A DNA stretch of 64,000 nucleotides from Desulfohalobium retbaense DSM 5692 (GTDB taxonomy: Bacteria > Desulfobacterota > Desulfovibrionia > Desulfovibrionales > Desulfohalobiaceae), in assembly GCF_000024325.1 (NCBI RefSeq), contig NC_013223.1, positions 744,001 through 808,000 on the forward strand, written 5' to 3'. A model generated the notes under the pieces. It was not told the DNA's origin. It made no database searches and was given only the letters and a program-made list of their open reading frames with translations. A program made the position numbers and the translations under genes. This document shows, piece by piece, positions 7,455 through 30,539 of this stretch (position 1 is its first letter; each line of letters opens with the position of its first letter).

Positions 7455-7885
7455 TTAGGAAGAGATGGAGGTAGGCCCTCCGGAGTCTGCTGTCGGAAGC
7501 CGGCTTCAAACCAACCCAAGCTGCGCGTGTTAAGAGCACGGGTGGTGAGCGTTGGGTGAGAAGGTAGCGCTAAACGTTATCAGGTGAGATATCGAGAGAC
7601 GAGGATCTCCGAACCCATGTTGACGTGTCGAGAACCAGATTTGGCATCAAAAGCGGAGGCGTGTCCCATCTCCGTGATAAGTCTGCGGGTGAATTCCGAA
7701 TGCTGCGCAGGCGGTGCCCGGCATAAAGGTGGGCGTGACTCGGTATCAGGCTCTTCCTGGGAACTACGGGAACCAGTCATCATGATACCAAGGGAGAAGG
7801 TGCAAGCGGCGATCACCGCGAGACCGAGAGTACCGATGCATGATACTGGGGCGGAGCTGCCTGTAGTAGTGCGGAAGCGTTTGTA

Positions 7886-9211: not shown

Positions 9212-9288
9212 TGGGAGCGGTATGAGCCGAGAGGCTCACGTACCGTTCTGCGAGAGGCTGACGGTGAGATTCCGTTGGTCTACTCACC

Positions 9289-13454: not shown

Positions 13455-14300
13455 ATGGCACTTTCGATTAACACCAATATGGCGTCGCTTCAGTCGCAGA
13501 TGTCTTTGGCGAACAGCACTCAGGCGTTGGAGCAAAACCAGCAAAGGTTGGCCACTGGTCTGCGTATTAATTCTGCAGCTGATGATGCAGCCGGACTGAC
13601 AATTACGGATGGAATGACTTCCCAGATTCGGGGAATGAATCAAGCTGTCCGAAATGCTAATGATGGTATCTCAATGGCCCAAACCGCTGAAGGTGGGGCT
13701 AAAGAGATTACCAATATGCTTCAGCGCATGCGTGAGTTGGCAGTTCAGGCAGCAAACGATACCAATACTAATGCTGATAAAAAGGCACTGCAACAAGAAT
13801 TCGACGAATTGGCCTCTGAAATAAGCCGCGTGGGTGAAGCAACACAGTTCAATACGAAAAATCTCCTTACTGGTACGGAAGGTTCATCAGTAGCTATACA
13901 GGTTGGGCCTAACAATACTGGTAATGATACTATTAATATCGATCTAAGTGAAAACTTGCGCGCTTCTGCTGCAGGCCTCGCTGTTGATAGTTTAACTATA
14001 GGAAGTGGTTCAACCTTATCTGATATTCAAGCAGCCATTTCAGGTATTGATACAGCTATCGGGACAGTCGATGAGTTTCGCTCCGAGCTTGGTGCTACTC
14101 AAAACCGACTTCAGTCGAGTATTTCGAATCTCGAAAATGCTGCACAAAATCTTACTGAATCCCGCTCTCGGATTATGGATGCGGATATCGCTAAAGAATC
14201 CGCGGAAATGACCCAGAATAATGTCCGCCAGCAGGCCTCAGCCGCTGTGTTGGCGCAAGCGAATCAGCAGCCACAACTTGCTTTACAGTTGTTAGGTTAA
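13455..14300 (+). CDS. fliC: Flagellin (copy 1)
   Basis: The 281-residue protein is a short flagellin made almost only of the conserved D0/D1 rods. The N terminus MALSINTNMASLQSQMSLAN and INSAADDAAGLTITDGMTSQ carry the usual assembly sequence; the C terminus ends with SRIMDADIAKESAEMT and QANQQPQLALQLLG, including the terminal arginine-rich/glutamine region used by FliS and export. Only about residues 110-215 differ from copy 2. It is exported by the flagellar type III system and forms the filament, and is the expected target of the Maf transferase. The sigma-28 promoter and strong ribosome-binding site (AAGGAGG) indicate high late expression. Confidence 0.95.
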   Translation: MALSINTNMASLQSQMSLANSTQALEQNQQRLATGLRINSAADDAAGLTITDGMTSQIRGMNQAVRNANDGISMAQTAEGGAKEITNMLQRMRELAVQAANDTNTNADKKALQQEFDELASEISRVGEATQFNTKNLLTGTEGSSVAIQVGPNNTGNDTINIDLSENLRASAAGLAVDSLTIGSGSTLSDIQAAISGIDTAIGTVDEFRSELGATQNRLQSSISNLENAAQNLTESRSRIMDADIAKESAEMTQNNVRQQASAAVLAQANQQPQLALQLLG

Positions 14301-14348: not shown

Positions 14349-15194
14349 ATGGCACTTTCGATCAACACCAATATGGCGTCGCTTCAGTCGCAGATGTCTT
14401 TGGCAAATAGCACTCAGGCGTTGGAGCAAAACCAACAAAGGTTGGCCACTGGTCTGCGTATTAATTCTGCAGCTGATGATGCCGCCGGACTGACAATCAC
14501 GGATGGAATGACCTCCCAGATTCGGGGCATGAATCAAGCTGTTCGAAATGCCAATGATGGTATCTCAATGGCCCAAACTGCTGAAGGTGGAGCTAAAGAG
14601 ATTACCAATATGCTTCAGCGCATGCGTGAGTTGGCAGTTCAGGCAGCAAACGATACCAATACTGATGCTGATAAAAAGGCATTGCAACAAGAATTCAATG
14701 AATTGACTGCTGAGATTACTCGTGTTGGTAATTCAACCCAGTTTAATAAGGAAAATCTTCTTACAGGTTCTGCTGGGGCAAGTGTTAATATTCAAGTAGG
14801 TCCAAATAACACAAGTGATGATACGATTAATATTGATCTTAGCCAAGATCTGCGTGCCGCAACAGGTGCTCTTGGTGTTAACGGCTTAAATATCGGGAGT
14901 GGTTCGTCTTTAACTCAGATACAAACTGCAATTTCAGATATTGATGACGCTATCGGGACAGTCGATGAGTTTCGCTCCGAGCTTGGTGCTACTCAAAATC
15001 GACTTCAGTCGAGTATTTCGAATCTCGAAAATGCTGCACAAAATCTTACTGAATCCCGCTCTCGGATTATGGATGCGGATATCGCTAAAGAATCCGCGGA
15101 AATGACCCAGAATAATGTCCGCCAGCAGGCCTCAGCCGCTGTGTTGGCGCAAGCGAATCAGCAGCCGCAGCTTGCGTTGCAGTTGCTCGGGTAA
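14349..15194 (+). CDS. fliC: Flagellin (copy 2)
   Basis: A second 281-residue flagellin whose first ~105 and last ~65 residues are identical or nearly identical to copy 1, with long stretches of identical DNA, pointing to recent duplication or gene conversion. The middle (about residues 105-215, for example NELTAEITRVGNSTQFNKEN and GALGVNGLNIGSGS) has diverged by substitution without length change. It starts 48 bases after copy 1, shares its promoter and has its own strong ribosome-binding site. Filaments may therefore be mixed. No separate variable outer domain is present. Confidence 0.95.
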   Translation: MALSINTNMASLQSQMSLANSTQALEQNQQRLATGLRINSAADDAAGLTITDGMTSQIRGMNQAVRNANDGISMAQTAEGGAKEITNMLQRMRELAVQAANDTNTDADKKALQQEFNELTAEITRVGNSTQFNKENLLTGSAGASVNIQVGPNNTSDDTINIDLSQDLRAATGALGVNGLNIGSGSSLTQIQTAISDIDDAIGTVDEFRSELGATQNRLQSSISNLENAAQNLTESRSRIMDADIAKESAEMTQNNVRQQASAAVLAQANQQPQLALQLLG

Positions 15195-17757: not shown

Positions 17758-18450
17758 ATGCCAGAACTTGAATCATTGTACGCCATTACCTCCCCCCGGC
17801 GGGCTAGGTTGATCGCGCCACTTCGTGATGGAGGCACGGCCGAAGTGCATGGGCGCGTTATCGCCTTTGCTACTGAAGAGCCTCCAGTGTTGCGCTTTAC
17901 CTGCGATGGGACTAGCCGCCGGGACCGCCCTTCGGCCATGAATTTCGCGCCTGATGAAAACTATGAACTTCTCACCGGGGTCGATTTCCGCTCCATTACC
18001 CTCCAGGCCAGGCTCCATGGCGTTGAATCCGAGGATAAAGTTTTGCTCCGGGCGCAAGAAATTACGAAATCCGAACAGCGCCGGGAATATTTTCGGGTCC
18101 GTGCTGATTTTACTGTCCAGGTTATGCCGGCCGAGGCGCATCCGAACCGCCACGTTGCGCAAGTGGTCTGTGCTCGGGATATCAGTGGTGGGGGCATGCG
18201 TATGTGGACTCGAGTCCCTTTACGTCCGGGCACGAAACTTCGCCTGAATTTCGATTTGGCTGAATTCGCCCGCCAACCCATCCAATGCTATGCTATTGTG
18301 GTGCGCTGTAAATCACCCGGGGAAGGGTATGACGTAGCCGTGACCTTTGAAGATCTCGACGGGGAGTATCACGACGCGATCATGGCTTTTTGTTTTGCCA
18401 AGCAGCGCGAGCAATTGCGAAACCAGGTCCGCGTGCGTGATTTTGAGTGA
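17758..18450 (+). CDS. PilZ-domain protein, YcgR-like (cyclic-di-GMP effector)
   Basis: The 230-residue protein has an N-terminal domain of about 105 residues like the YcgR/FlgZ N domain and a C-terminal PilZ domain. The two c-di-GMP-binding motifs are visible: EQRREYFRVRA (RxxxR) near residue 120 and ARDISGGGMRM (D/NxSxxG) near 145. Such proteins slow or bias the flagellar motor when c-di-GMP is high. It follows fliS after 131 bases of non-coding DNA and its ATG at 17758 has no clear ribosome-binding site. Nine bases after its stop begins the first 8-bp array. Confidence 0.85.
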   Translation: MPELESLYAITSPRRARLIAPLRDGGTAEVHGRVIAFATEEPPVLRFTCDGTSRRDRPSAMNFAPDENYELLTGVDFRSITLQARLHGVESEDKVLLRAQEITKSEQRREYFRVRADFTVQVMPAEAHPNRHVAQVVCARDISGGGMRMWTRVPLRPGTKLRLNFDLAEFARQPIQCYAIVVRCKSPGEGYDVAVTFEDLDGEYHDAIMAFCFAKQREQLRNQVRVRDFE

Positions 18451-18458
18451 TTGTTGTT

Positions 18459-18580
18459 GGGGAATTGAAGAATTTAGGGATTGAGGAATTGGGGAATTCA
18501 GGAATTCAGGAATTGAAGAATTTGGAATAAAGAGATTGAAGAATTTAGAGATTCAAGAATTCAAGCATTGAAGAATGAAA
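18459..18580 (+). repeat. 8-bp-phased purine-rich array A1 (left boundary of unit 1)
   Basis: About 15 consecutive units fit an 8-base frame with consensus GARGAATT, for example GGGGAATT GAAGAATT TAGGGATT GAGGAATT GGGGAATT. Units vary at most positions but the phase is kept. It starts nine bases after the PilZ stop. Confidence 0.9.
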
Positions 18581-18581
18581 A

Positions 18582-18909
18582 ATACATCTTTTGAATAAGA
18601 CAAAAAAAGTTTTAGGTTTTAGGTATTAAGTTTTAGGGAAGAACGAAGATGGAATTTGCGTTTCCAAGTCGGGATCGCTATCGGGATCCAAATCGTTTTT
18701 TGAAAATCAAGAAAGCGCAATTTATTGTGTAGGTCGGCTCCAGCGAAGCTGAAGCCGACACAGATTTTCAGTCTTTGCATTTTACTGGCATCCACTGCAA
18801 TAGCAAAATACACGATTTTGAATTTGCTGTCTTTTGTCCATAGTCCTCTGTCTTCATTCTTTGGACCGCCAGGCGCCTGCCTGGCTTTGCAGTGATGCAG
18901 TTTCTGGTT
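18582..18909 (-). repeat. Non-coding core of unit 1 with strong hairpin
   Basis: No gene is visible here. Read on the minus strand it matches 30157-30472 over most of its length: a CAGGCGCCTG palindrome, a 27-base hairpin (18733-18759, arms GTCGGCTYCAGC and GCTGRAGCCGAC), GATCCCGATAGCGATCCCGA, a TTAAAACTTAA/CCTAAAACC block and CTTATTCAAAAGATGTATTT. The IS21 element interrupts it at 18910. Confidence 0.85.
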
Positions 18910-18972
18910 TGTCAATATCCACCCCAATGGAGCCACCCTTGACCACCCTAAAGGAGCCACTCTATGTCCGCC

Positions 18973-19800
18973 CTAATGGAGCCACTTTGAGTAGCCATTT
19001 TTGCGGTTGCGAACCCCCCATTTTTTAGGCCGTTTTGGTGTTTTGGGTGGTGCTTTTTTTACGCTTTGGTTGGGTTTCGGGGTCCTGTAGCTCGGCCCGT
19101 CCAAGTAGACTAGGTGTGCGTCATGACGGAGCCTGTCGATGGTGGCTGACCCCAGGAGCTTATTCTCAAACGCCCGGTCCCATTCCAGAAAGTCGAGGTT
19201 GCTGGTGATGATGGTGGCCGCGTGTTCGTATCTGTGGGCCACGAGCTCATGCAGATCCTCATCGTGCGGGGGCCGGACCGGCTTGAGCCCAAAATCGTCG
19301 ATAACCAGGAGCGGGACCTGTGCCAGGGCCTTGAACTTTTTGGCATACGTCTGCGTGGCCCTGGCGCCGTGCAGAGTGGACAGCAGCTTGGTCTGGGTGA
19401 TGAAGCGCACATCAAAGCCCCGTCGTATGGCGTAGTGGCCCAGAGCCTGGGCTATATGGCTCTTGCCGGTACCACAGGGGCCTGTCATGAGCACGCAGGC
19501 CTTTTCATGGATGAACTGACAGGTGGCCAAGTCGTAGAGTTGGTTTCTGTCGATCTTGGGGTTGAAGTCAAAATCGAATTCTTCCAATGTCTTACTGCTT
19601 TTAAAGCCCGCCTTGCGCATCCGGGAGGTGAACTTCTTCTGGTCCCGGCGGGCGACTTCGTCACTCAAAAGCAGCGACAGGAACTCGGTATAGGGCATCT
19701 TTTCTGAAATCGCCTGTTTATTCCGGACCTCCAGTGAGTCCAACATACCGGAAAGGCGCAGTTTTTTGAGTAAAGGGGTTATGTCTGGTTTGGGCTGCAT
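18973..19800 (-). CDS. istB: IS21-family transposition helper ATPase IstB
   Basis: The 275-residue protein is an AAA+ ATPase of the DnaA/DnaC-like type that helps IstA select and strain target DNA. It shows the N-terminal helical region (LLKKLRLSGMLDSLEVRNKQ), Walker A GPCGTGKSHIAQALG near residue 105, Walker B PLLVIDDFGL near 165 and sensor TSNLDFLEWDRAF. The C-terminal tail is basic (KKAPPKTPKRPKKWG). The start is placed at MQPKPDIT; upstream codons to 19863 are in frame but lie in the istA-istB spacer. It looks intact. Confidence 0.9.
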   Translation of the reverse strand: MQPKPDITPLLKKLRLSGMLDSLEVRNKQAISEKMPYTEFLSLLLSDEVARRDQKKFTSRMRKAGFKSSKTLEEFDFDFNPKIDRNQLYDLATCQFIHEKACVLMTGPCGTGKSHIAQALGHYAIRRGFDVRFITQTKLLSTLHGARATQTYAKKFKALAQVPLLVIDDFGLKPVRPPHDEDLHELVAHRYEHAATIITSNLDFLEWDRAFENKLLGSATIDRLRHDAHLVYLDGPSYRTPKPNQSVKKAPPKTPKRPKKWGVRNRKNGYSKWLH

Positions 19801-19878
19801 ACAATGACTCCCTGATAATGGTGGTGCGATGGATCGCCCCGGGCAAGGACACGCCCGGGGCACGACGAGAGCCGGCCA

Positions 19879-21414
19879 TTATTGGAACATATCAGTTGGG
19901 GGTCGGGTATGCTTGCCTTTACCGGTATACACCTCATCCAGCGGCAACTGGGTTTGGGTTTCAATGGGCTCCTGCTCCAGACCTTGTTTAAGAATGCTCT
20001 TTACAGTGCGGTATGTAGGGCTCAGATAGGCTACGGCACGTTTGCAGGCCAGTTCCAGGGATTTGGCCCCATACGCCTTCTTGAGGCTTATGAGCCCCTG
20101 GGCTGCACGCAGATTGTGCAGGACCCTGTCGGCGAAGAGCGCGTCAATCACCGCCCGACAGGACGGGCCGATCTTCTCTGCTTGGGCCACGCACCACTGG
20201 GGATCGCGCATTAGATAGGCCTGGGCCTCTGGCGGATAATGGTCCTTGTTGGTGGATTGCTGACCTGGCTTAAACAGTCGGGGGTGCGCCGCCACCAACT
20301 GGTGGTCTTTGTAGATGGCGACGGTCTTCTCCAGGGTTTTGACCCAGAGAGTTTGATTGGCATAGATGTAGGGCGCTGAATAAAAACACTTTTTTAGGCA
20401 GATGTGACAGTCTCCGTGGAGCTTGCATTGCTGCCACACCGCCAGCTCTGGCGCGATAGCGGGCAAGGGCTGCAACACAAAACGCTCGGTGTGCTCAAAC
20501 CGTTCCAGGGGCTTTTCATGAGTGGTGCCGTGGATGCGATTGCCAGCCACATCCATGATCCATACCAAGAGCTGACGGTTGCTTTCCGCCATGCTCCGAT
20601 GCCTGCGCAAGGGGACAAAGGTATTTTTGACGTATTTGACCCCTGACTCCACCCGGCCCTTTTTTTGTGGGTCCTGGACGGGACAGGGATCGATCTTGAA
20701 GCCGTAGCCAAGCGCCAGATCCTCATACGAACGCTGTACTTTCGGCTCATAGTAGCTGGCACTGGTGATGGCGGATTTGAGGTTGTCGATGCGTACCTGG
20801 GTTGGAACGCCGTTGAAAAACTCGAAGGCCCGCCGGTGGCAGCCCAGCCAGGTTTCGATAGTTTGATCGGGCACAATCTCAGCATACATGTGCCGACTCC
20901 AGGCCAGGGTCATAACGAAGATCCAGCTTTTAACGGGGCTGCCGGTATGGGGATCGTTAAAATCAGGTCCTTTACCGAAGTCCACCTGGGCGGATTCCCC
21001 GGGTTTAAAGATGAGCCGAACCGTCGTTTTTGGTTCCTTGTTCTTGAGGGTCTTGAGGTAGCGGCGCACACAGGAATACGCTCCGGTGAAGCCGTGATCG
21101 CGGCGCAAGGCGTTATGGATGGTAGAACCCTGGATACCCTGTGCATACCAGCGTGCGACCCTCTCTTTGTGCGGTTCGAGCTTTGACATCGCGGTTGCTG
21201 CGGATTGGGAGCCAAAAGTCGCTTGCAGGTCCGCCTCTTGCGGAATGGGGCACGCAGGGTCAAGCCAACCCTGCTCTCGAGCCTTCTGTCTGACGGTAGC
21301 CGCCTTGCGGCGCCCCATGAGCCCAGCTTTCTGGATCTGCCGGTCAGAATCGCCCAAGCGCATCCGGTGCAAAACATGCTGATACTGATACATTTCGAAC
21401 CTCCTGTTTGCCAT
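19879..21414 (-). CDS. istA: IS21-family transposase IstA
   Basis: The roughly 511-residue transposase has an N-terminal helix-turn-helix segment (HRMRLGDSDRQIQKAGLMGRRKAA), a second DNA-binding region, and an integrase core with the acidic triad: QVDFGKGP near 150, VRIDNLKSAI near 225 and KGRVESGVKYVKN near 270. The C-terminal region ends in a TGKGKHTRPPTDMF tail that may contact IstB. Start is MANRRFEM at 21414 behind a GGGG site; MYQYQHVL at 21393 with AGGAGG is equally possible. The gene is intact, so the element may be active. Confidence 0.9.
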   Translation of the reverse strand: MANRRFEMYQYQHVLHRMRLGDSDRQIQKAGLMGRRKAATVRQKAREQGWLDPACPIPQEADLQATFGSQSAATAMSKLEPHKERVARWYAQGIQGSTIHNALRRDHGFTGAYSCVRRYLKTLKNKEPKTTVRLIFKPGESAQVDFGKGPDFNDPHTGSPVKSWIFVMTLAWSRHMYAEIVPDQTIETWLGCHRRAFEFFNGVPTQVRIDNLKSAITSASYYEPKVQRSYEDLALGYGFKIDPCPVQDPQKKGRVESGVKYVKNTFVPLRRHRSMAESNRQLLVWIMDVAGNRIHGTTHEKPLERFEHTERFVLQPLPAIAPELAVWQQCKLHGDCHICLKKCFYSAPYIYANQTLWVKTLEKTVAIYKDHQLVAAHPRLFKPGQQSTNKDHYPPEAQAYLMRDPQWCVAQAEKIGPSCRAVIDALFADRVLHNLRAAQGLISLKKAYGAKSLELACKRAVAYLSPTYRTVKSILKQGLEQEPIETQTQLPLDEVYTGKGKHTRPPTDMFQ

Positions 21415-21656
21415 TGTACCCCCCTGGAATGTTGGTGTTTCCAAGGAGGTATATTGAATGCGGGAGGTTCGAAACCTTCAAAATGGCTACATGGCCGATC
21501 CCAAGGTGGCGCCATTAGACCGGTCAAAGGGTGGCTCCATTACGCCGATCATGACCTGGCTCCATTAGGGTGGACATCATGTGGATCCATTAGGTGGACA
21601 TGGACTGGCCCCATTAGCGTGGACATGGAGTGGATCCATTAGCGCGGTCACTGACA

Positions 21657-21752
21657 CTGTTTTGCCTTTCCAGTTCAAAATTTTAAGAAAGCACAATTGT
21701 TAGGCTTTTTTATTGTTGAAATCTTTAAATGCAATTTTCTACAGTTCTTTAT
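21657..21752. other. Remainder of unit 1 after the IS21 insertion
   Basis: About 95 bases of AT-rich non-coding DNA between the IS21 right end and array A2. I see no gene, hairpin or promoter in it. Confidence 0.6.
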
Positions 21753-21872
21753 GAATCTTTCAATTTCTTAATTCCTCAATTTGGTAATATTTTAGCTTTT
21801 CAATTGCTTTAATTCTCCAATCTTACAATCCCTCAATCCCTCAATCCCATAATTCCTGAATTTTCCAATTTA
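21753..21872 (-). repeat. 8-bp-phased pyrimidine-rich array A2 (right boundary of unit 1)
   Basis: Fifteen 8-base units, for example ACAATCCC TCAATCCC TCAATCCC ATAATTCC, the complement of the GARGRATT pattern. It ends ten bases before the FliK-like start codon, which has no ribosome-binding site. Confidence 0.9.
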
Positions 21873-21882
21873 GTAAAAAATT

Positions 21883-22947
21883 ATGCAACTCCCTGCTGCG
21901 CCCCCGCCGGGGGTCTCCATTACCCTCCAGCCGGCTGCCCAGCAGCAGCCCGTGCCGACCAACGTCCAGCAGGACGTCCAACTCCTTGATCTCAAGCCCT
22001 ATCAGATCGTGCTCGCCTCCGTGGTCCGTGGCGGTATGGACAAGGCCGAACTCGAACTCGGCCGGCAACGCTTCACTGCCGTGACCCGAGTGCCGCTGAC
22101 CACCGGCCAGCGTATCCAGGCCGAAGTGGTGCGCACCTCCCCGTTTATCGAGCTCCGTCTTGTGGATCAGACCGCGCTCAAAAATCTTTTCCAAGCCTTG
22201 CACCATCTGCAAAGTAAGTTCGATCTGAGTGGCTTTCTGGGCCTGGACAAGCTCAGCAGCTTGTTGCAGGGCCATTCCCGCGGTGCCGAGATGGAGTCCA
22301 CCTTGCAACAGGCTGGGACGCTCTTGGGTCTGGGCGGCAGCCCAGACGCCAACGTACTTAGCAGTCTGCTCAGGCTGCTCGGCCTGGACACCGAGCACCG
22401 TTTGGCCCAGGGGCAGGCGGATCGGGCTATGGCCACACTCAAGGCGACCTTGCACACTTTGGCGCAGGCCGGGCAGGGCCAGGAGGCTGGAGACCGGGCG
22501 GAAAAGCTGGTGGACCAGTTGGAGCTCTTTCAGCTCTGCCGAGTCCGGTTGGCCCAGCTGGGTAAGGAGTGGCTGCCGTTGCCGCTGCCGTTTCTCGACC
22601 AAGGCTATCTTGTGGCCGAGCGCGGCGCTGACCAATCGGGCCAGGAGCAGCAGGGTCAAGAGGATGACATCGAGCCCTGGACTGTGGGGCTGTTTTTGCA
22701 GCTTCAGGAACTTGGCGCGCTGAATATCCACGTGGTCAGTCAGGGTGGCGGGATCAACGTCCGGGTGCTCTGCGAGACCCGCGAAGCAGCCCACCAGTTC
22801 GAAACCGCTCGTCAGGAATTAGTGGACACCGTTCAGGCTTTGCCGGTGAAGAAGTTGCAGATCGGGATCGGGGCAGAAGATCCGAGTCAGCACTTGCTGC
22901 GGCTCATTGTGCCGGAGGGGGAGCGGTCGTTTGAGGCGTGGGTGTAG
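21883..22947 (+). CDS. FliK-like (hook-length control, C-terminal domain) protein
   Basis: The 354-residue protein has a proline/glutamine-rich start, a first domain of about 80 residues, a long leucine/glutamine-rich helical middle, and a C-terminal domain resembling the FliK/YlqG substrate-switch domain: LGALNIHVVSQGGGINVRVLCETREAAHQFETARQELVDTVQALPVKKLQI near residues 270-325. It is not a canonical FliK because the order of the middle is different. The nearest functional partner is the FlhB-like switch domain at 29796, as in the Bacillus ylqG-ylqH pair; here 7 kb of mobile DNA and inverted orientation separate them. The start codon lacks a ribosome-binding site, and the TAG stop lies at the beginning of array A3. 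Confidence 0.6.
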   Translation: MQLPAAPPPGVSITLQPAAQQQPVPTNVQQDVQLLDLKPYQIVLASVVRGGMDKAELELGRQRFTAVTRVPLTTGQRIQAEVVRTSPFIELRLVDQTALKNLFQALHHLQSKFDLSGFLGLDKLSSLLQGHSRGAEMESTLQQAGTLLGLGGSPDANVLSSLLRLLGLDTEHRLAQGQADRAMATLKATLHTLAQAGQGQEAGDRAEKLVDQLELFQLCRVRLAQLGKEWLPLPLPFLDQGYLVAERGADQSGQEQQGQEDDIEPWTVGLFLQLQELGALNIHVVSQGGGINVRVLCETREAAHQFETARQELVDTVQALPVKKLQIGIGAEDPSQHLLRLIVPEGERSFEAWV

Positions 22948-22982
22948 GATTGCAGGATTGAAGATTGCACGATTGAGGTAGG
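22946..22982 (+). repeat. 8-bp-phased array A3, first part (interrupted by IS110)
   Basis: Four to five units (AGGATTGC AGGATTGA AGATTGCA CGATTGAG) begin inside the stop codon of the FliK-like gene. The array continues at 26931 beyond the IS110 element, which therefore inserted into it. Confidence 0.75.
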
Positions 22983-23073
22983 ATGAGAAGGCTGGACCAC
23001 CTGACGAGCTATAGCTTAGAGCTATGCTCACCAAAACAACGCAGTCATATGCTGCAAACCAGGAGGCCCAGCC

Positions 23074-23357
23074 ATGAAGTGCCATTTAGCAAATCATACC
23101 ATCGGTGTCGATCTCGGTGACAAGCAGAACGTCGTATGCGTGTTGGACTGGAACGGGGACATTGCCACCACCTTTAAGGTGACCAATACCAAGACTGCGA
23201 TGCGTAAACGGTTTGCTGCCTACTCAGGAGCCTTTGTTGCCATTGAGGCGGGGACACACTCTGCCTGGATCAGCCGCCTGCTCAAAGAGCTTGGTTGCGC
23301 AGTTGTCGTCGGCAACCCTCGCAAACTCCGCTGCATTTGGCAGGAGCCGATCAAAAC
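23074..23357 (+). pseudogene. IS110-family transposase, N-terminal part
   Basis: The first 94 residues carry the RuvC-like DEDD start: TIGVDLGDKQNVVCVLDWNG with the first aspartate, and FVAIEAGTHSAWI with the glutamate. The frame reaches GNPRKLRCIWQEPIK and then meets a TAA supplied by the first bases of IS66. It has a good ribosome-binding site (AGGAGG) before ATG 23074. The rest is at 25832-26631 in a compatible frame. Confidence 0.87.
23339..23357 (+). repeat. 19-bp direct repeat at the left side of IS66
   Basis: GGCAGGAGCCGATCAAAAC here is identical to 25832-25850. IS66 elements normally duplicate 8 bp, so 19 bp is unusually long. Confidence 0.9.
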
Positions 23358-23463
23358 GTAAGCGTCCAATTAACCCCACATGGTAGAGGGGAGCAGGAAA
23401 TGGTAAGGCCCGCTTGGTAGGTGCTACCAAGCGGGCCTGGTTGGGACGAAGTCGGTTGTTGGG

Positions 23464-25014
23464 CTAGCCTGCGGAAGGCGTTTGGATCAGGGCGGGATCG
23501 ATGTGCTGGGGCAGGAGTGCTTGAACATCCTGCTCATCCTGAGCCCGGGGCAGGTGCTCAAAGAGATGGCACAGATAGGCATAGGGCTCCAGGCCGTTTA
23601 GCTTGGCGGTTTCCATCAAGGAGAAAAACAGGGCTCCGGCGTGGGCGCCATTGGGATGGCCGGCGAACAGCCAGTTCTTCCGGCCCAGGGCAAAGGGTCG
23701 GATGGCATTTTCAACAAGGTTGTTGTCCGGCCTGATCCTACCGTGTTCCACATAACGCACCACGCGGTCCCACTGGTTCAGGGCATACGCGATGGCCTTG
23801 CCCAACTGGCTTTTGGGAGGAGTGCTCAGCGATCCTTGGTCCAGGATTGATTTGATTTCATCCAGTATGGGGACAGCATATTGTTCCCGCTGCTCTTTGA
23901 TCCGACCCGGTTCCAGTTTTTGCTGGGCCAGCGTCTGCTCCAGGTTGTAGAGTTGGGCGATGCGATCGAGGACCTCCTGGGCAACGCCGCCTTTGGCCTT
24001 TGCCCGTTTGGAGATCTTGATAACATCCATAAATTTGCGACGGACATGGGCCAGGCAGCCCACATGGGTGATCCCCGGCCGTTCGCCCAGGGCTTCGTAG
24101 GCGGCATACCCATCGGTTTGGATATATCCAGTAAAGTTCTGGAGGAAGTCCAGCGCCTTGCCGCTGCGGCTGGGATGGTATTGATACAACACGGTGGGGC
24201 GCTCAGCCGATCCGCCCAGAAAGACCCACATGTAGGATTTGGTGGTGTTGGCTTTGCCCGATTCGTTGAGTACTTGCACCGGGGTTTCGTCGATGCCCAG
24301 GAAGTGATCAGCCAGCAGATCTTTTTTAAACAAGCCGAGCAAGGGCTCACAGGCCCTGGCTGCAGACATGGCCCACGCCACCATGGTGGAGCGGGAGAGA
24401 TCGACGCCCAGTCTGGCAAACTGTTTCTCCTGGCGATAAAACGGCAAGGCGTCCACAAACTTGGCCACCAGGATGTGCGCCAGCAAGCTGGGGGTGGCAA
24501 TCCCCTGCGGGATCAGCTGGGCCGGCATGGGCGCGGTGACCACAGCTCCCTGCTGGCTTTCGACGCCCTCACAGCCCCGACAGGCGTATTTGCGGCGGAT
24601 ATGCTTGTGCACACAAAGGCGTGAGGGCACATAGTGCAGCTTTTCGCTGACTTCCTGGCCGATACAAGTCAGTGAGGTACCGCAAGCGCAGACCTTGTCT
24701 TCCTCAGAGATGTCGTGGACGATCTCCTCGCGAGGCAGATCAGGGGGAAGAGGCTTTCTGCCGCGTTTTTGGCGGGTATGCTCGGGAACGGTAACGCTGT
24801 GCTGTTCTTTGGATTCGGGCTCTGCCATCTCAAAACCAGGCAAAGGCAGGTGGTTTTCCAAAGATTGTGCATTCGAGCTTTTTTCAGACTTCGTGCCAAA
24901 TATCGCTTTTTGCAGAAGGTCAATTTTCTCTTTTAAATACGATACGTGGTACTGATAGTCAGAAATGATTTTTTTCAGCTCTTGTGTGTCGTTGGGAAGG
25001 TCTTTCGTGTTCAT
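23464..25014 (-). CDS. tnpC: IS66-family transposase TnpC
   Basis: The roughly 516-residue protein has the IS66 order: an N-terminal coiled coil (ELKKIISDYQYHVSYLKEKIDLLQKAIFGTKSEK), a zinc-finger-like segment with CACGTSL and CRGCEG, then the DDE core with FLGIDETPVQVL, YIQTDGYAAYEAL, GCLAHVRRKF and finally RPDNNLVENAIRPFALGRKNWLF with the glutamate. The C-terminal IS66 tail (AHAGALFFSLMETAKLNGLEPYAYL) is present. I start it at MNTKDL (25014); a start at 25044 would add ten residues. Confidence 0.92.
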   Translation of the reverse strand: MNTKDLPNDTQELKKIISDYQYHVSYLKEKIDLLQKAIFGTKSEKSSNAQSLENHLPLPGFEMAEPESKEQHSVTVPEHTRQKRGRKPLPPDLPREEIVHDISEEDKVCACGTSLTCIGQEVSEKLHYVPSRLCVHKHIRRKYACRGCEGVESQQGAVVTAPMPAQLIPQGIATPSLLAHILVAKFVDALPFYRQEKQFARLGVDLSRSTMVAWAMSAARACEPLLGLFKKDLLADHFLGIDETPVQVLNESGKANTTKSYMWVFLGGSAERPTVLYQYHPSRSGKALDFLQNFTGYIQTDGYAAYEALGERPGITHVGCLAHVRRKFMDVIKISKRAKAKGGVAQEVLDRIAQLYNLEQTLAQQKLEPGRIKEQREQYAVPILDEIKSILDQGSLSTPPKSQLGKAIAYALNQWDRVVRYVEHGRIRPDNNLVENAIRPFALGRKNWLFAGHPNGAHAGALFFSLMETAKLNGLEPYAYLCHLFEHLPRAQDEQDVQALLPQHIDPALIQTPSAG

Positions 25015-25063
25015 GGCTGCGTATACATATATGCAAAGATGCACCAGATGACAAGGGTTGCAA

Positions 25064-25417
25064 TTAGAATAATGTGTTGTAGTTGAGTCTGTTATGGCCT
25101 TTTGTTTTTGCCAGGTCTAGCCCGTCCAGAAGCCAGAGAAGTTCGCGTTTCCGAACCGCTAAGACCTCTTTTTCCGACTGAGGCCATTGGAAGATGTGTT
25201 TTTCGAGCTTTTTTTGCCATAAACAAAAGCCATTGAGATCCCAGTAAAGGATTTTAATCATGGTTTGTTTACGGTTGCAAAAGACAAAGAGATGGCCAGA
25301 AAAAGGATCGTGTTCCAGTTGGGCCTGGACCATTATGGAGAGACCGTTGATGGCCTTGCGCATGTCCGTGTAGCCAGTGACCAGATAGACATTGGCCTGG
25401 CTCTGCCCCAAGATCAC
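25064..25417 (-). CDS. tnpB: IS66-family accessory protein TnpB
   Basis: The 117-residue protein matches the IS66 Orf2 family: VYLVTGYTDMRKAINGLS, FSGHLFVFCNRKQTMIKILYWDLNGFCLWQKKLEKHIFQWP and LLWLLDGLDL. Its exact biochemical role in transposition is not established. It overlaps tnpA by four bases (ATGA), which indicates coupled translation. Confidence 0.92.
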   Translation of the reverse strand: MILGQSQANVYLVTGYTDMRKAINGLSIMVQAQLEHDPFSGHLFVFCNRKQTMIKILYWDLNGFCLWQKKLEKHIFQWPQSEKEVLAVRKRELLWLLDGLDLAKTKGHNRLNYNTLF

Positions 25418-25755
25418 GGCATCTGCTCCAGGGTCTGGATGAGCTTTTGCAAAACAGGCGGGTGGAAATCCCCTCCCACGGCGACGTGGAAGCGTTCACC
25501 AACGGTGATCGTCAGGCTGGAGCGGCTCGAGACGAGATCGCTGGCTTGAAACGGCAAGGCAACGGCGGTGCCCTCTTCTGGGGCAACTCGCTGGAGCCGC
25601 TGGCAACGGTAGTAGAACCTATGCTTGGTTAATTCATTTTGCCGGCAGTATTCGGCCTTGCTCAAGCCGCTTTCCTTCCACTTGCGAATGTGCTCCAGCC
25701 AGTACTCGGCCGTGCTGGATACGTTTTGCTTATCGCCCTGGGAATGGTCGTCCAT
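25414..25755 (-). CDS. tnpA: IS66-family TnpA
   Basis: The 113-residue protein has the IS66 TnpA helix-turn-helix: WLEHIRKWKESGLSKAEYCRQNELTKHRFYYRCQRLQR, followed by a short C-terminal domain (LTITVGERFHVAVGGDFHPPVLQKLIQTLEQM). It is the first gene of the tnpA-tnpB-tnpC set. Confidence 0.9.
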   Translation of the reverse strand: MDDHSQGDKQNVSSTAEYWLEHIRKWKESGLSKAEYCRQNELTKHRFYYRCQRLQRVAPEEGTAVALPFQASDLVSSRSSLTITVGERFHVAVGGDFHPPVLQKLIQTLEQMP

Positions 25756-25831
25756 AAAGGCCTCCTTGGTTTGAAGGAGACCTTTACCATATGGGGAAAA
25801 TAGCGAAAGATGGGTTTAATTGGACGCTTAC

Positions 25832-26631
25832 GGCAGGAGCCGATCAAAACAGACTTTCGCGACGCTGAGATGTTGGCCCGGGTGGCCAAGATGGATCCCA
25901 AACTCTTGCGCCCCATTGAGCACCGAAGCGCAGATGCACAAGCCAGGCTGGCCATCCTGCAAGCCCGTGATGCGCTGGTAAAAAGCAGGACCTCTCTTAT
26001 CAACCACGTTCGAGGGACCGTAAAATGCGCCGGGGAACGCCTGCCGAAATGCAGCGCCGCCAGCTTCCACAAAAAAGCACCGGAGCATATCCCCAGTGAA
26101 CTCAAAGCAGCCCTGCTGCCGTTGATAGAACAAATTGCCAATTTCACTGAAGGGATAAAAAAATACGAGCACGAAGTGACACACCTCAGCCGCACCCACT
26201 ACCCTGAGACAGAAGTGTTGCGACAAGTCCCCGGCGTTGGGCCGATCACAGCCTTGGCGTTCGTTTTGACGCTCGAAGATAAGGACCGTTTCACCAAGAG
26301 CCGAGATGTAGGGCCATTTCTAGGCTTGGTTCCCAAAAGGGACCAATCCGGGGATACCGACAAGCAGCTACGCATCACGAAATGCGGTAACTCCCAGTTG
26401 CGCACCTTGCTGGTCAATGTCGCTCACTACGTCCTGGGCCCATTTGGGGCTGATAGTGAGCTGCGACGATTCGGGCAGCGCATTGCCGCGAGAGGGGGCA
26501 CGATCGCCAAGAAACGGGCTGTGGTAGCTGTGGCGCGCAAACTGGCGGTTTTGCTCCACCGACTGTGGGTGACGGGGGAGGAGTATCACCCCTTTTATTG
26601 CCACAAGGATTCCACCGTCGAAGCTGCATAA
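25832..26631 (+). pseudogene. IS110-family transposase, C-terminal part (with second 19-bp repeat)
   Basis: After the second copy of the 19-bp repeat (25832-25850) the frame continues TDFRDAEMLARVAKMDPKLL, which supplies the remaining RuvC aspartates, through a helical linker to the transposase_20 domain: LRQVPGVGPITALAFVLTLED and LVPKRDQSGDTDKQLRITKCGNSQLRTLLVNVAHYVL with the catalytic serine region. Joining it to the N-terminal part after clean loss of IS66 and one repeat would give an intact protein of about 355 residues. Confidence 0.87.
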
Positions 26632-26634
26632 CGC

Positions 26635-26919
26635 TTCACCACGTAGAAATAAATTTTCCAGGGGGCCCAGCAACGGCCTCGTGGTCAACCACCGCTAGCA
26701 CCAAATAAAGTCCCATTCGGAAGACTGCGGCAAATTCCTAGGCCTCTTTGCTTGCCGGCAAAACCACACAAGGCCGCAATTGAGGTGGCAGCTTCCACCA
26801 AGCGAATAGTACTGAGACACCGGATCAAATGGCAACGATCCTCGAAGAGTGCGTATGGAAGTGCGACTTGCTTGGGACTATAGGGCAATACGGTGGTCCG
26901 CCACGTCGGACGTTGACAT
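26635..26919 (+). ncRNA. Candidate bridge-RNA region of the IS110 element
   Basis: About 285 bases without an ORF lie between the transposase stop and the right inverted repeat. In the IS1111 group the long non-coding end is on the transposase 3' side and is the expected place of the bridge RNA that pairs with donor and target. I have not folded it; the call is from position. Confidence 0.35.
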
Positions 26920-26930
26920 GCCTTCTCATG

Positions 26931-27030
26931 GAAGGAATTGAGGTATTGAAGATTTTAGAAATTGAGGGATTGAAAGATTGAGGAGTTGAAGAATTAAAGA
27001 GCTGAAGAATTGAAAGGTTGAAGAAGTAAA
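26931..27030 (+). repeat. 8-bp-phased purine-rich array A3, main part (left boundary of unit 2)
   Basis: Twelve units in strict 8-base phase, for example TGAGGGAT TGAAAGAT TGAGGAGT TGAAGAAT. With 22946-22982 it formed one array before the IS110 insertion. It ends about 40 bases before the four-helix-bundle gene. Confidence 0.9.
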
Positions 27031-27072
27031 ATGTTTTTGGATATGGGTTTACGAAGGAACTAAGGGTCAAAT

Positions 27073-27339
27073 ATGCGGTATCATCAGTTTGAAGAGCTGC
27101 CATGTTGGCCAGAAGCACGGAGTTTGTGTCAGGCAGTGAGTGATATCGTGTATACAACAAAGTTGCGAGAAGATTTTAGTCTAAAGGATCAGATCAGACG
27201 GTCGTCAGGATATGTCATGGATAATATTGCCGAAGGGTTTGATGACGGATCAGCCAAGGAATTTATACGATTTCTGGGTTATGCTCAACGCTCTTGTGGC
27301 GAAGTTCAATCGCAGCTCTACCGGGCCTATGATTTTTCA
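27073..27339 (+). pseudogene. Four-helix-bundle (S23 / Avd-like) protein, N-terminal part, split by ISL3
   Basis: The frame encodes FEELPCWPEARSLCQAVSDIVY, LKDQIRRSSGYVMDNIAEGFD and GSAKEFIRFLGYAQRSCGEVQSQLYRAYDF, the signature of the small four-helix-bundle family known from 23S rRNA intervening sequences and related to the Avd protein of diversity-generating retroelements. These proteins are basic pentamers or bundles that bind nucleic acid; the function of stand-alone copies is not known. At TCA the reading is interrupted by an ISL3 element; the C-terminal part is at 28721-28825. The gene lies inside a unit bounded by inverted 8-bp arrays. Confidence 0.87.
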
Positions 27340-28712
27340 GGTTCCTCACACAAATCTGTGCCTGACTTGAGGCCAAAAACTTGAAAAGCATGAGCCCTCT
27401 CGGGTAGTTAGGTAGTTACCACACAAACCTATCACCCAGGAGGAACTCATGCTCGTGTCCCAGTTAACCAAATTGACGCTGGATATTCAAGGATTTCGTG
27501 TCGGTCGGGTTCAGGGTGATACGAGCGGGATCACCGTAGATATAGCCCCAGACCGGCGTCATCTGCTCTTTTGCAGCCGCTGCGGTGGCGCTGCCAAGTA
27601 TCGGGATACCCTTACAATTCGCTATTTTCGCCATGTCCCTCTTTGGGGGATCCCTGTATGGCTCCGGTACAGCCCCCGCAGAGTTCGGTGCGGACATTGC
27701 GGCGTCAAGGTGGAGTATTTCCCCTGGAGCACTGGCAAACATCGGTTCACAACGGCTTTTGCCCACTTCCTGGCTTCGTGGGCCCGGTTACTGCCCTGGA
27801 AACATGTAGCACAGCTTTTTGGTTGCTCCTGGGGTACCGTGGCCGCTGCTGTTGACCAGATTGTCGAGTATGGTCTGGCCCATCAAGATCTCTCGAATCT
27901 GACGCACATTGGGATTGACGAAATCTCCCGAGAAAAGGGCCAAGTATACCTAACCAATGTCTACGACCTGAATACCTCCAGACTCGTATGGAGCGGGGAA
28001 AAACGGACAAAGGCAACAATCACCAACTTCTTCACTTCGCTAGGTCCTAGCAAGACCGATAAGCTTGAAGGGGTCTGTTGCGACATGTGGGAGCCGTATA
28101 CCCAGGTCGTTCAAGACAAGGCCCCGAAAGCGACGATGGTCTTCGACAAATTCCACATTGTCCGGCATCTCAATGAAGCCGTTGACCAGGTCCGTAGAGA
28201 CGAGATCCGGGAAAAGGGCCAAAAGCACAAGGATCTGGTTAAAGACACCCGATATATCTGGCTCAAGAACCCGTGGAACCTGACTGACAAGCAGGCATCT
28301 CGGTTGAGTGCACTGGAAAAACTCAATCTCAAAATCAACAGGGCGTATTTACTCAAGGAATCATTTCGCCAGTTCTGGTCGTATGAGTGCAGGACTTCAG
28401 CCAAAGATTTCCTCGACAAGTGGTTCTGGTGGGCGACGCATTCCAGGCTGAAGCCAATGCGAAATTTTGCTTGGATGCTGCGCCGCAAAGAAGAAAATAT
28501 TCTCAGTTATTTCGATATGCCCATCAGCAATGGCTCGGTGGAAGGCCTCAACAATAAGGCTAAAGTCATTAGTCACAGAGCATACGGGTTCAGGTCGGCC
28601 AAGAACTACATCCGGAATCTGTACCATTGCATGGGCGGGCTACCTGAACCCCAAATTATGCACAGATTTGTGTGAGGAACCCCAAATTATGCACAGATTT
28701 GTGTGAGGAACC
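27340..28712 (+). mobile_element. ISL3-family insertion sequence
   Basis: Perfect 22-bp inverted repeats start GGTTCCTCACACAAATCTG at both ends. An eight-base target duplication ATTTTTCA is present at 27332-27339 and 28713-28720, the length expected for ISL3. The right end is doubled: the last 31-32 bases occur twice in tandem (28650-28681 and 28681-28712). Confidence 0.93.
27449..28675 (+). CDS. ISL3-family transposase
   Basis: The 408-residue protein has the N-terminal zinc-binding part (CSRCGGAAKY and VRCGHCGVKVEYFPW), a helix-turn-helix region (FGCSWGTVAAAVDQIVEYGL) and the DDE_Tnp_ISL3 core with IGIDEISREKGQVYLTNVYDL, GVCCDMWEPYTQVVQDKAP, FDKFHIVRHLNEAVDQVRR and the closing SNGSVEGLNNKAKVISHRAYGFR with the glutamate. 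It starts at ATG 27449 behind AGGAGG and ends inside the inner copy of the right inverted repeat. Confidence 0.93.
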   Translation: MLVSQLTKLTLDIQGFRVGRVQGDTSGITVDIAPDRRHLLFCSRCGGAAKYRDTLTIRYFRHVPLWGIPVWLRYSPRRVRCGHCGVKVEYFPWSTGKHRFTTAFAHFLASWARLLPWKHVAQLFGCSWGTVAAAVDQIVEYGLAHQDLSNLTHIGIDEISREKGQVYLTNVYDLNTSRLVWSGEKRTKATITNFFTSLGPSKTDKLEGVCCDMWEPYTQVVQDKAPKATMVFDKFHIVRHLNEAVDQVRRDEIREKGQKHKDLVKDTRYIWLKNPWNLTDKQASRLSALEKLNLKINRAYLLKESFRQFWSYECRTSAKDFLDKWFWWATHSRLKPMRNFAWMLRRKEENILSYFDMPISNGSVEGLNNKAKVISHRAYGFRSAKNYIRNLYHCMGGLPEPQIMHRFV

Positions 28713-28720
28713 ATTTTTCA

Positions 28721-28825
28721 TATATAGATGTTGAGCAAGTCAATGCTATCTATGGGCTGGCAGCATTATGCCGAAAGCAGATCAAAGGTTTGCGAAGGTA
28801 TTTGCGCAACTGCGATTATATATAA
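28721..28825 (+). pseudogene. Four-helix-bundle protein, C-terminal part
   Basis: Directly after the target duplication the frame continues YIDVEQVNAIYGLAALCRKQIKGLRRYLRNCDYI and stops at 28823-28825. Joined to 27073-27339 with one copy of the duplication it gives a normal-length protein of about 124 residues, so ISL3 is the only damage. Confidence 0.87.
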
Positions 28826-28913
28826 TTTTAAAGGTTTTTCAGTAACATTTTTTACTATTCAAGATTGAAATTTTTTTGTTTTCTTTGATTTTACAAATTC
28901 CCAGTTCTTGAAT

Positions 28914-28961
28914 GCAATAATTCTTCAATCCCTCAATTTCCAAATTCCCCAATCCCCCAAT
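28914..28961 (-). repeat. 8-bp-phased pyrimidine-rich array A4 (right boundary of unit 2)
   Basis: Six units: GCAATAAT TCTTCAAT CCCTCAAT TTCCAAAT TCCCCAAT CCCCCAAT. Its last base is the last base of the stop codon of the minus-strand gene 28961-29482. Confidence 0.88.
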
Positions 28962-29482
28962 TACATTCCACATATCCCTGAATCGAGCGCTTCGCTAGCG
29001 TCCATGAGCCCTTCCAGGCCGAAGGCCTGTTCTCTGACGGTCTGCAGGGAGCGATCCGGATGTTGAGGCCTGACTTTGACGGAGAGGACGAACCCCCGCA
29101 GCATTTCTTCAACCAGCGGTTGGGGTAAAATACAGCCGTTGGTTACGTTGGAGGCGGTAGTAGTGCGTGCGGGGTTGGTGTCGACCTGACACGTGATAGT
29201 CAAGTCCACCGGCTCCAGGGCAAACGCGCCCCATAGCAAGGGTTGGCCTTGCTCATTGATGCTCAGCTCCATCTTGTGCGGATCGTCGTAGGATTGTTTG
29301 AGGTAGCAGTCGGAGCGGCCGGGTTCTTTGATCACCAGCCAGTCCTTGTATTTGGCCACAGCGTGGTCCTGCTCCCAGTCAGACCATTGCTGGGCCGCCA
29401 GCGGTGCGGCTAGAACCAGAAAGAGGAGGCCAATACAGCCCCAGCGCAAGATCGGGGAATGGAGTTCGGTTTGATTGGTCAT
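28961..29482 (-). CDS. Secreted protein of unknown function
   Basis: The 173-residue protein starts with a short polar stretch and a signal peptide (LRWGCIGLLFLVLAAPLAAQ, cleavage probably after AAQ near residue 32). The mature part begins WSDWEQDHAVAKYKDWLVIKEPGRSDCYLKQSYDD and contains three cysteines (SDCYL, TCQVD, GCILP). It resembles invasion-associated-locus-B-like proteins in style (WLVI...DCYLKQ...MELSI) but the match is too weak for a name. Export to the periplasm is the firm part of the call. Its leader is formed by array A5 and there is only a weak ribosome-binding site. Confidence 0.65.
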   Translation of the reverse strand: MTNQTELHSPILRWGCIGLLFLVLAAPLAAQQWSDWEQDHAVAKYKDWLVIKEPGRSDCYLKQSYDDPHKMELSINEQGQPLLWGAFALEPVDLTITCQVDTNPARTTTASNVTNGCILPQPLVEEMLRGFVLSVKVRPQHPDRSLQTVREQAFGLEGLMDASEALDSGICGM

Positions 29483-29493
29483 GGTTCTTTAAT

Positions 29494-29597
29494 TAAGAAT
29501 TTAGGGATTTATTGATTGAGGGATTGAAGGATAAAGAAATTGAAAGCTGAAAAATTCAATAATTTAGGAATTAAAGAATTGCAGAAATTTAAAGAGG
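29494..29597 (+). repeat. 8-bp-phased purine-rich array A5 (left boundary of unit 3)
   Basis: Thirteen units, for example TAAGAATT TAGGGATT TATTGATT GAGGGATT GAAGGATA. It starts 12 bases upstream of the minus-strand start codon at 29482. Unit 3 (29494-29800) has a core of about 160 bases in which I see no gene or hairpin. Confidence 0.88.
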
Positions 29598-29760
29598 TGA
29601 AAAGGGCATTACGATCCATGAATTTGCTTTTGGGATGTAGCTTGTTACACAATTTTTGTTTGTAGCCATGAAGTTAAACTTACGATAAAAATGCTTGTGG
29701 GCTTGATGTGGCATGTTTATCATTTATAGATTGTATCTCTTGACTTTTTCTTAGGTCTTT

Positions 29761-29800
29761 GAATTCCTCAATTCCTCAATTTTGCAATCTTTCAATCACT
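29761..29800 (-). repeat. 8-bp-phased pyrimidine-rich array A6 (right boundary of unit 3)
   Basis: Five units: GAATTCCT CAATTCCT CAATTTTG CAATCTTT CAATCACT. The stop codon of the FlhB-like gene (complement of TCA, 29796-29798) is inside the last unit. Confidence 0.87.
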
Positions 29801-30065
29801 CTTGCCTCCCATTCAACCGGTAGACGAAGGCCAGGATTTCGGCCACGGCTTGGTACAGGTCTTCCGGGATTTCGTCGCCGACAGGGACCTGGGCCAGGAC
29901 TTCCAGCAGGTCCGGGTCTTCACGCAAGGGAACGTCGGCCTCCTCGGCTGTGGCGAGGATGCGTTCAGCAAGGCGACCCTGACCGCTGGCCACAACCCGT
30001 GGAGCATCGTCTTTACTGCGTTCGTATTTGAGGGCAACTGCGCCTTTGCGTTTGTCTTGGGTCAT
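29796..30065 (-). CDS. FlhB C-terminal-domain homologue (YlqH/FlhX-like export switch protein)
   Basis: The 89-residue protein corresponds to the cytoplasmic domain of FlhB/EscU without the membrane part: KRKGAVALKYERSKDDAPRVVASGQGRLAERILATAEEADVPLREDPDLLEVLAQVPVGDEIPEDLYQAVAEILAFVYRL. The autocleavage motif NPTH of real FlhB is absent (the segment starts after it), so it cannot be cleaved but can replace or assist the C-terminal half. Such small proteins often pair with FliK-like proteins. The start codon is preceded directly by array A7 and has no ribosome-binding site. Confidence 0.85.
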   Translation of the reverse strand: MTQDKRKGAVALKYERSKDDAPRVVASGQGRLAERILATAEEADVPLREDPDLLEVLAQVPVGDEIPEDLYQAVAEILAFVYRLNGRQE

Positions 30066-30068
30066 AGT

Positions 30069-30156
30069 TGGATTGAGAAATTGAGGGATTAAGGGATTGT
30101 AAGAATTAGAAAATTAGGAATTTAGCAATTGAAGAGTTGAAAGATTAAAGAATGAG
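30069..30156 (+). repeat. 8-bp-phased purine-rich array A7 (left boundary of unit 4)
   Basis: Eleven units, for example TGGATTGA GAAATTGA GGGATTAA GGGATTGT. It begins four bases upstream of the FlhB-like start codon (minus strand). Confidence 0.88.
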
Positions 30157-30472
30157 ATGCATCTATTATGCAAACCAGGCAGGCGCCTGGCAATCCGAAG
30201 ACAGAAGACAATAAATACACATCGTGTATATTCCTGTCGGAGTGGATATCAGTGCAATGCAAATACTGAAAATCAGTGTCGGCTTCAGCTTCGCTGGAGC
30301 CGACCTACGCAATAAACTACGCTTTTTTGATTTTCAAAATCGATTTCGATCCCGATAGCTATTTCAATTTCGATGTAAATTTGGATGATGGACTTAGTTC
30401 TTCTGTATTACTTAAAACTTAACACCTAAAACCTAACACTTTTTTTATCTTATTCAAAAGATGTATTTTTTT
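30157..30472 (+). repeat. Non-coding core of unit 4 with strong hairpin
   Basis: Matches the reverse complement of 18582-18909 along its length. The hairpin at 30278-30304 has 12-base arms around TTC (GTCGGCTTCAGC / GCTGGAGCCGAC), with a CAGGCGCCTG palindrome 75 bases before it and AACTTAACACCTAAAACC and CTTATTCAAAAGATGTATTT after it. No ORF. Confidence 0.87.
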
Positions 30473-30531
30473 CATTCTTGAATTCTTGAATTTTCTAATT
30501 CCTCAATCCTTCAATTCTTCAATCCCTCAAT
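30473..30531 (-). repeat. 8-bp-phased pyrimidine-rich array A8 (right boundary of unit 4)
   Basis: Seven to eight units: CATTCTTG AATTCTTG AATTTTCT AATTCCTC AATCCTTC AATTCTTC AATCCCTC. Confidence 0.9.
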
Positions 30532-30539
30532 TCAAAAGA

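Follow-up and report, generated by a model that had tools for sequence, protein, structure and literature searches.

The stretch of the Desulfohalobium retbaense DSM 5692 genome analysed here (64 kb, hereafter the window) contains two tandem, near-identical flagellin genes (13455–14300 and 14349–15194), followed by FlaG-, FliD- and FliS-like genes. Three group II intron matches (Rfam; 3087–3309, 7467–7585 and 9213–9288) are clustered upstream of the flagellin genes and are a possible source of reverse transcriptase; nothing in the analysis links them to the array elements described below, and no rRNA was detected in the window by Rfam. Further downstream lie a PilZ-domain gene (17758–18450), a FliK-like gene (21883–22947) and, on the reverse strand, a gene at 28961–29482 and an FlhB-tail gene (29796–30065), and the spacers around them are occupied by tandem arrays of a degenerate 8-bp unit, GAATTGAR, or its complement.

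A scan of the window with a cyclic 8-position profile, scored in bits, recovered nine array pieces at 18457–30533 (25–144 bits each), the rest of the 64 kb scoring at most 21.3 bits. The first-pass annotation had located the arrays correctly, had arranged them as four inverted pairs with none in the remaining 50 kb, and had given approximately correct spans for the pairs after removal of insertion sequence (IS) elements (roughly 690, 760, 311 and 464 bp); the purine-rich arm of the second pair is split by an IS element. The 8-base phase that it described is evident in the full arrays as autocorrelation of about 0.5–0.7 at lags of 8, 16 and 24, compared with about 0.2–0.3 at lags more than one base off any multiple of 8, and in the short piece at 22946 it holds solely at lag 8. 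The units do not, as had been supposed, vary freely: among 632 units, positions 3–4 (AT) are fixed in 93–94%, and variation at positions 1, 2, 7 and 8 is almost only between A and G. The head-to-tail arrangement of 8-bp units, with spacers absent, excludes a CRISPR array, and the array structure excludes a simple microsatellite or IS ends, in line with the initial description.

Table 1. Arrays, mobile elements and the IVP gene at 18457–30533 of the window.
Feature	Position	Strand	Remarks
Pair 1 purine-rich arm, (GAATTGAR)n	18457–18583	+	144 bits
IS21-type element in pair 1 core	18918–21645	-	istB-like 18973–19863, istA-like 19879–21444
Pair 1 complementary arm	21748–21870	-	99.6 bits
Pair 2 purine-rich arm, outer piece	22943–22978	+	25 bits, weak
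IS110-type element between pair 2 arm pieces	22990–26925		outer limits approximate, by eye
Pair 2 purine-rich arm, inner piece	26933–27025	+	101.7 bits
23S-rRNA-IVP gene, pair 2 core	27073–27384	+	3' end cut off by ISL3-type element
ISL3-type element inside IVP gene	27390–28712	+	transposase 27449–28675; limits approximate
Pair 2 complementary arm	28881–28962	-	69.3 bits
Phased array piece	29491–29595	+	85.1 bits
Pair 3 complementary arm	29748–29801	-	50.2 bits
Pair 4 purine-rich arm	30070–30153	+	83.5 bits
Pair 4 core	30154–30467		hexamer array 30331–30386 and hairpin GTCGGCTTCAGC..GAGCCGAC
Pair 4 complementary arm	30468–30533	-	79.9 bits

The window arrays lie a few bases from stop codons and 5–9 bases from two start codons (Table 1). 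The purine-rich arm of pair 1 comes after the stop codon (18448–18450) of the PilZ-domain gene, and the FliK-like gene starts 12 bases past the complementary arm; the outer arm piece of pair 2 has its first base at the FliK-like stop codon, and its complementary arm directly adjoins the 28961–29482 gene at the stop codon. The complementary arm of pair 3 overlaps the stop codon of the FlhB-tail gene, the start codon of which lies 5 bases from the purine-rich arm of pair 4, positioned upstream of it. The arms of pair 4 form a single long predicted stem (folding z −7.6), and the enclosed core matches that of pair 1 (18584–18838) in reverse, at 80% over 267 bp. The IS21-type element has end repeats at 18918–18986 and 21557–21644, and the IS110-type transposase is present in two pieces (23074–23361 and 25810–26631) split by an IS66-type element (23464–25755). 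All four IS types at 18918–28712 (IS21, IS110, IS66 and ISL3) reside within array-bounded spacers, with none in the adjoining genes.

Apart from IS elements, the core of pair 2 contains only a 23S-rRNA-IVP (hereafter IVP) gene, which matches PF05635 (E 9e-23), TIGR02436 (E 1.4e-21) and 2GSC (E 1.6e-5). The PF05635/TIGR02436 proteins constitute a ring-forming four-helix-bundle family for which a crystal structure exists, and we know of no established function for PF05635 proteins. IVP is homologous to Avd of diversity-generating retroelements (PMC10053308).

The arrays had been considered confined to a single 12-kb region, which is correct within the window and incorrect for the genome: a pattern of three units, allowing at most 3 mismatches, gave 96 + 103 = 199 matches, in about ten clusters, in the 2.9-Mb genome, compared with 0 for the reversed pattern, and was present in 9 of 61 genomes (D. 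retbaense and 60 of the same order). The 438 kb sampled were chosen mostly around these matches, so that array densities in them do not represent genome averages; they contain 103 arrays, none of which overlaps coding sequence (predicted with a simple gene caller of our own) by more than 20 bases, in agreement with the intergenic location first reported. Phased stretches were intergenic in 138 of 141 cases. The arrays occupy spacers of every gene orientation, and for 87 of the 103 the closer neighbouring gene is the one that the purine-rich strand points away from (outward orientation); in the spacers holding both orientations the order is + then − in 22 of 22, and never the reverse. Other phased modules share these spacers, among them about 50 hexamers of the GATCCC/GATAGC/GATTTC type, and 7-mers (for example, GGTATCA, AAGTTTT and CCGTCTT). 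Degenerate hexamer arrays, including that of pair 4, occur in many spacers, are as numerous as the octamers and are always arranged in the same order and direction with respect to them. In 70 spacers a core of at least 100 bp is similar to that of another spacer, and the stems of 20 array pairs have a median folding z of −4.9. No preference of arms for pairing with their own partner was found within the genome (p 0.81).

Because an IVP gene lies inside pair 2, arrays were sought around IVP genes elsewhere, using a detector of phased arrays of period 6–9 that made 0 calls on shuffled sequence; an array within 400 bp of the gene was counted, and IVP loci were taken in order of score, best first. 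Across five phyla (several phylum labels come from metagenome-assembled genomes), arms and IVP genes co-occur much more often than expected by chance, with an array at 65 of 92 IVP genes and at 8 of 120 controls (Fisher p 1e-23, odds ratio 34). The frequency was 39/51 in the order of D. retbaense, 17/29 in six genomes from outside that order (Mesorhizobium, Saprospiraceae, Lewinella, Flavobacteriaceae, Chlamydiota and Desulfobacterales) and 9/12 on cyanobacterial plasmids, and among controls it was 4/30 for SmpB genes, 2/40 for random windows, and 0/30 and 2/20 for ParE genes. The arms at IVP loci are phased arrays with a common, locus-specific unit and are mostly inverted: arrays on both sides have the same period in 32 of 34 loci, unit similarity is 0.83 to the own partner versus 0.44 to other loci (p 6e-17), and flanking arrays are inverted in 23 of 32 cases and direct in 9. 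Left arms are purine-rich in 45 of 61 cases and right arms are not purine-rich in 44 of 57, which is the outward rule of D. retbaense and of the published Xanthomonas and Nostoc heptamers (PMC4692102).

On 12 cyanobacterial plasmids the IVP genes are flanked by heptamers, mostly inverted (10 by the detector, 2 by eye). On plasmids of Pseudanabaena galeata (L371) and Anabaena sp. 90 (L372), the array-flanked IVP gene is located in a CRISPR locus, with cas6 on one side and cas4 on the other; an association of IVP with CRISPR has been reported (PMC3936711, PMC10910872) and may reflect insertion and not function. IVP proteins of a Chlamydiota metagenome-assembled genome (L281) and of a member of D. 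retbaense's order (L136) are 79% identical, which points to inter-phylum transfer, binning errors being possible. The unit and period agree with IVP lineage between genomes (Mantel p 0.0005) and only weakly between phyla (p 0.13), with signal only at IVPs at least 60% identical, and we rejected the idea that lineage sets them across phyla. All-frame stop codons were likewise discarded as a general reason for unit and orientation, given hexamer units without stops and a modest bias across IVP loci (34 versus 19 left arms); GAATTGAR does contain TGA, and certain Mesorhizobium genes terminate within arrays. At L102 (526–1422, − strand) the final codons and stop of a DMT transporter (..GRTVELRN*) come from array sequence.

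Presence and absence at single sites can be followed in Mesorhizobium. Exact GAATTGAR arrays occur in four orthologous spacers; those examined lie between convergent genes and have an arm–loop–arm structure, and at one of them element-free species have nearly abutting genes. The spacer between DMT-transporter and YihY genes is a slot used by two unrelated hairpin elements, a Rhizobiales palindrome (CATGATCCCGAAAA..TTTTCGG..ATCATGC) replacing the array hairpin in L265, L266, L272 and L274. The spacer between glutamine-synthetase-like (GS) and oxidoreductase genes, termed GS-DAO, was compared in 27 species: 6 have an empty site of exactly 6 bp, 8 have arrays only, as hairpins of the 7-mer GAATAGC or GAATAGT (2 of the 8 degenerate and recognized by eye), and 13 have an IVP gene flanked by GGGAGTAG-type arms. 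The tolB-pal spacer carries IVP with arms in 13 of 29 species, and array remnants in 2 of the 16 lacking IVP. Species differ in having or lacking the entire element, with the 6-bp empty site as the extreme case, and units come and go whole between species; 10 (GS-DAO) and 9 (tolB-pal) state changes fall on a 25-species tree, in which gain is not distinguishable from loss.

Two IVP lineages occupy the GS-DAO site, each with its own unit. Among intact IVPs, one lineage (L338, L342, L343, L353, L357 and L363) has GGGGAGTA/GGGGAATA-type units and the other (L344, L348, L352 and L358) has GGGCAGTA-type units, which are also present in L350, whose IVP was set aside owing to a gap or stop. The GS genes and flanks of L338 and L344 are 96% identical (dS 0.17) and their IVPs are 70% identical (dS saturated), so that near relatives hold, in one slot, different lineages with their own repeats. 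The dN/dS of about 0.06 for GS-DAO IVPs indicates that the protein is used and under purifying selection. The stems of 18 Mesorhizobium array pairs have a median folding z of −6.2.

The arrays might be ordinary slippage-born repeats, similar to those of Cyanobacteria, that pile up in unconstrained spacers, with IVP genes nearby through shared tolerance. Perfect stretches of variable length in one arm of Mesorhizobium orthologues look recent, as slippage would have it, and arrays also exist far from IVP genes. ParE genes, however, are likewise mobile and spacer-dwelling and are nearly array-free, and slippage can yield neither inverted partners of the same unit nor a strict + before − order; it also leaves unexplained a 6-bp empty site alongside array-only and array-plus-IVP states. 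We regard this explanation as unlikely.

Slightly less probable still are selected regulatory hairpins, acting as two-way terminators or RNA-stability stems, in which phase would be kept for arm pairing. The predicted stems are strong, the four exact-array spacers of Mesorhizobium, as far as examined, separate convergent genes, and convergent spacers are enriched in D. retbaense (17 of 63 with arrays versus 24 of 168 without). Against such a role, D. retbaense arrays occur irrespective of gene orientation and sister species lack the hairpin at the same spacer, and neither the invariable precedence of the purine-rich arm nor the IVP gene is explained.

The outward orientation, irrespective of gene direction, would also result if the arrays were scars of end-joining or break repair, in which 3' ends at a spacer break gain repeats by telomere-like addition or template switching and are then joined. 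Such scars would account for spacers with a single arm (21 + and 12 − among 63) and for arrays reaching the coding edge, whereas an IVP gene between the arms and the inheritance of units with IVP lineage at GS-DAO are not predicted; the explanation is very unlikely for the element as a whole, and break repair could nonetheless be a means of arm renewal. Least credible of all are G-quadruplex or protein-binding arrays for chromosome structure, as proposed for the Xanthomonas and Nostoc GGGAATC heptamers, since GAATTGAR lacks a run of three G and single sites differ in presence between sister species, even though the outward rule is the same as that published (PMC4692102).

The arrays are a real family within a larger phenomenon and, in the best reading, are probably the two arms of a stem-loop intergenic insertion element of the intervening sequence (IVS)/IVP type. 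Its plan would be 5'-(purine-rich unit)n–core–(complementary unit)n-3', filling the intergenic gap, often from the stop codon, with the IVP gene optional within the core. The arms may grow and shrink by whole units through slippage and be copied onto one another by fold-back synthesis, any register still pairing, which would explain how drifting arms keep their phase. Like the 23S rRNA IVSs (PMC4990558), the transcript could form a long stem open to RNase III cleavage, and by that analogy insertion between operon genes would be tolerable. IVP would serve the spread or maintenance of the element by acting on the arms that belong to it, and gene-free copies, nearly all of those in the D. retbaense genome, would be non-autonomous. 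Conceivable routes of movement are recombination, fold-back repair and reverse transcription with a borrowed enzyme, the last suggested by the homology of IVP to Avd (PMC10053308).

Several observations count against the stem-loop element. D. retbaense has 2 IVP genes for about a hundred arrays, one of them array-free; the arms there show no own-partner preference; 9 of the 32 IVP loci are direct; and unit agreement across phyla is weak. No clear target-site duplication was seen by eye at element junctions, and no mobility enzyme or transposase was identified; homologous recombination of a spacer would mimic mobility. The interpretation offered with the first-pass annotation is partly supported, having overlooked the IVP gene, the period 6 and 7 modules and the spread across phyla; its suggestion that a repeating protein might bind nucleic acid here was reasonable, given that the arrays are tied to genes of a ring-forming family.

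Short phased arrays in bacterial spacers, termed STRRs, have been described since 1990, and we are aware of no agreed cause for arrays of this type. Their link to the IVP family would connect bacterial repeats that have long lacked an explanation with a single protein family, and makes both testable, with respect to which IVP binds which unit and to element entry into a 6-bp operon gap. The outward rule in a unit without a three-G run also removes G-quadruplexes as its general reason. The elements could plausibly bring several unexplained families of repeats under one explanation. More tentatively, and with rather less than even confidence, IVP (Avd-like) proteins may belong to an unrecognized mobile-element class, with ends that are self-renewing phased microsatellites and a protein that acts on its own unit, of which many of the unexplained intergenic 6–9-bp arrays in Cyanobacteria, Bacteroidota, Xanthomonas, Beggiatoaceae and Desulfobacterota would be arms or relics. 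In the open-access literature we found neither a printed octamer array nor a connection between IVP genes and arrays, although an earlier account of STRRs on either side of S23 genes may exist.

Among known systems, 23S rRNA IVSs carry an S23/IVP ORF in Coxiella and Leptospira and are ORF-less in Salmonella. In Coxiella the IVS is an RNase III substrate, and variable heptamer repeats lie next to its S23 ORF (PMC4990558). The elements described here resemble these IVSs in their complementary ends forming a stem, optional IVP ORF in the core and small size, and differ in lying between protein genes and not in an rRNA helix, in having stems made of phased arrays of 6–9-bp units, and in that RNase III excision is putative. 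As tandem 6–9-bp units in the spacers of many loci they are of the STRR type, and they share with the GGGAATC/GGGGAYT arrays of Xanthomonas and Nostoc, for which the outward rule was published (PMC4692102), the TAACTGA arrays of Beggiatoaceae (PMC4679880) and their kin a degenerate, phased, gene-abutting and outward-oriented character; unlike the STRR heptamers, the unit here is AT-rich with period 8, and neighbouring modules have periods 6 and 7. The open text of those heptamer reports (PMC4692102, PMC4679880) makes no link between these repeats and IVP genes. Similar to MITEs, BIMEs and Rhizobiales palindromic repeats, the elements are small, dispersed and intergenic with inverted ends, and, as with MITEs, they are present or absent between relatives; the arms, however, are variable phased arrays instead of fixed terminal repeats. 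The diversity-generating retroelement system shares with them the homology of IVP to Avd (PMC10053308), whereas in the window the core of pair 2 contains only the IVP gene and IS elements, with neither template and variable repeats nor an adjacent reverse transcriptase.
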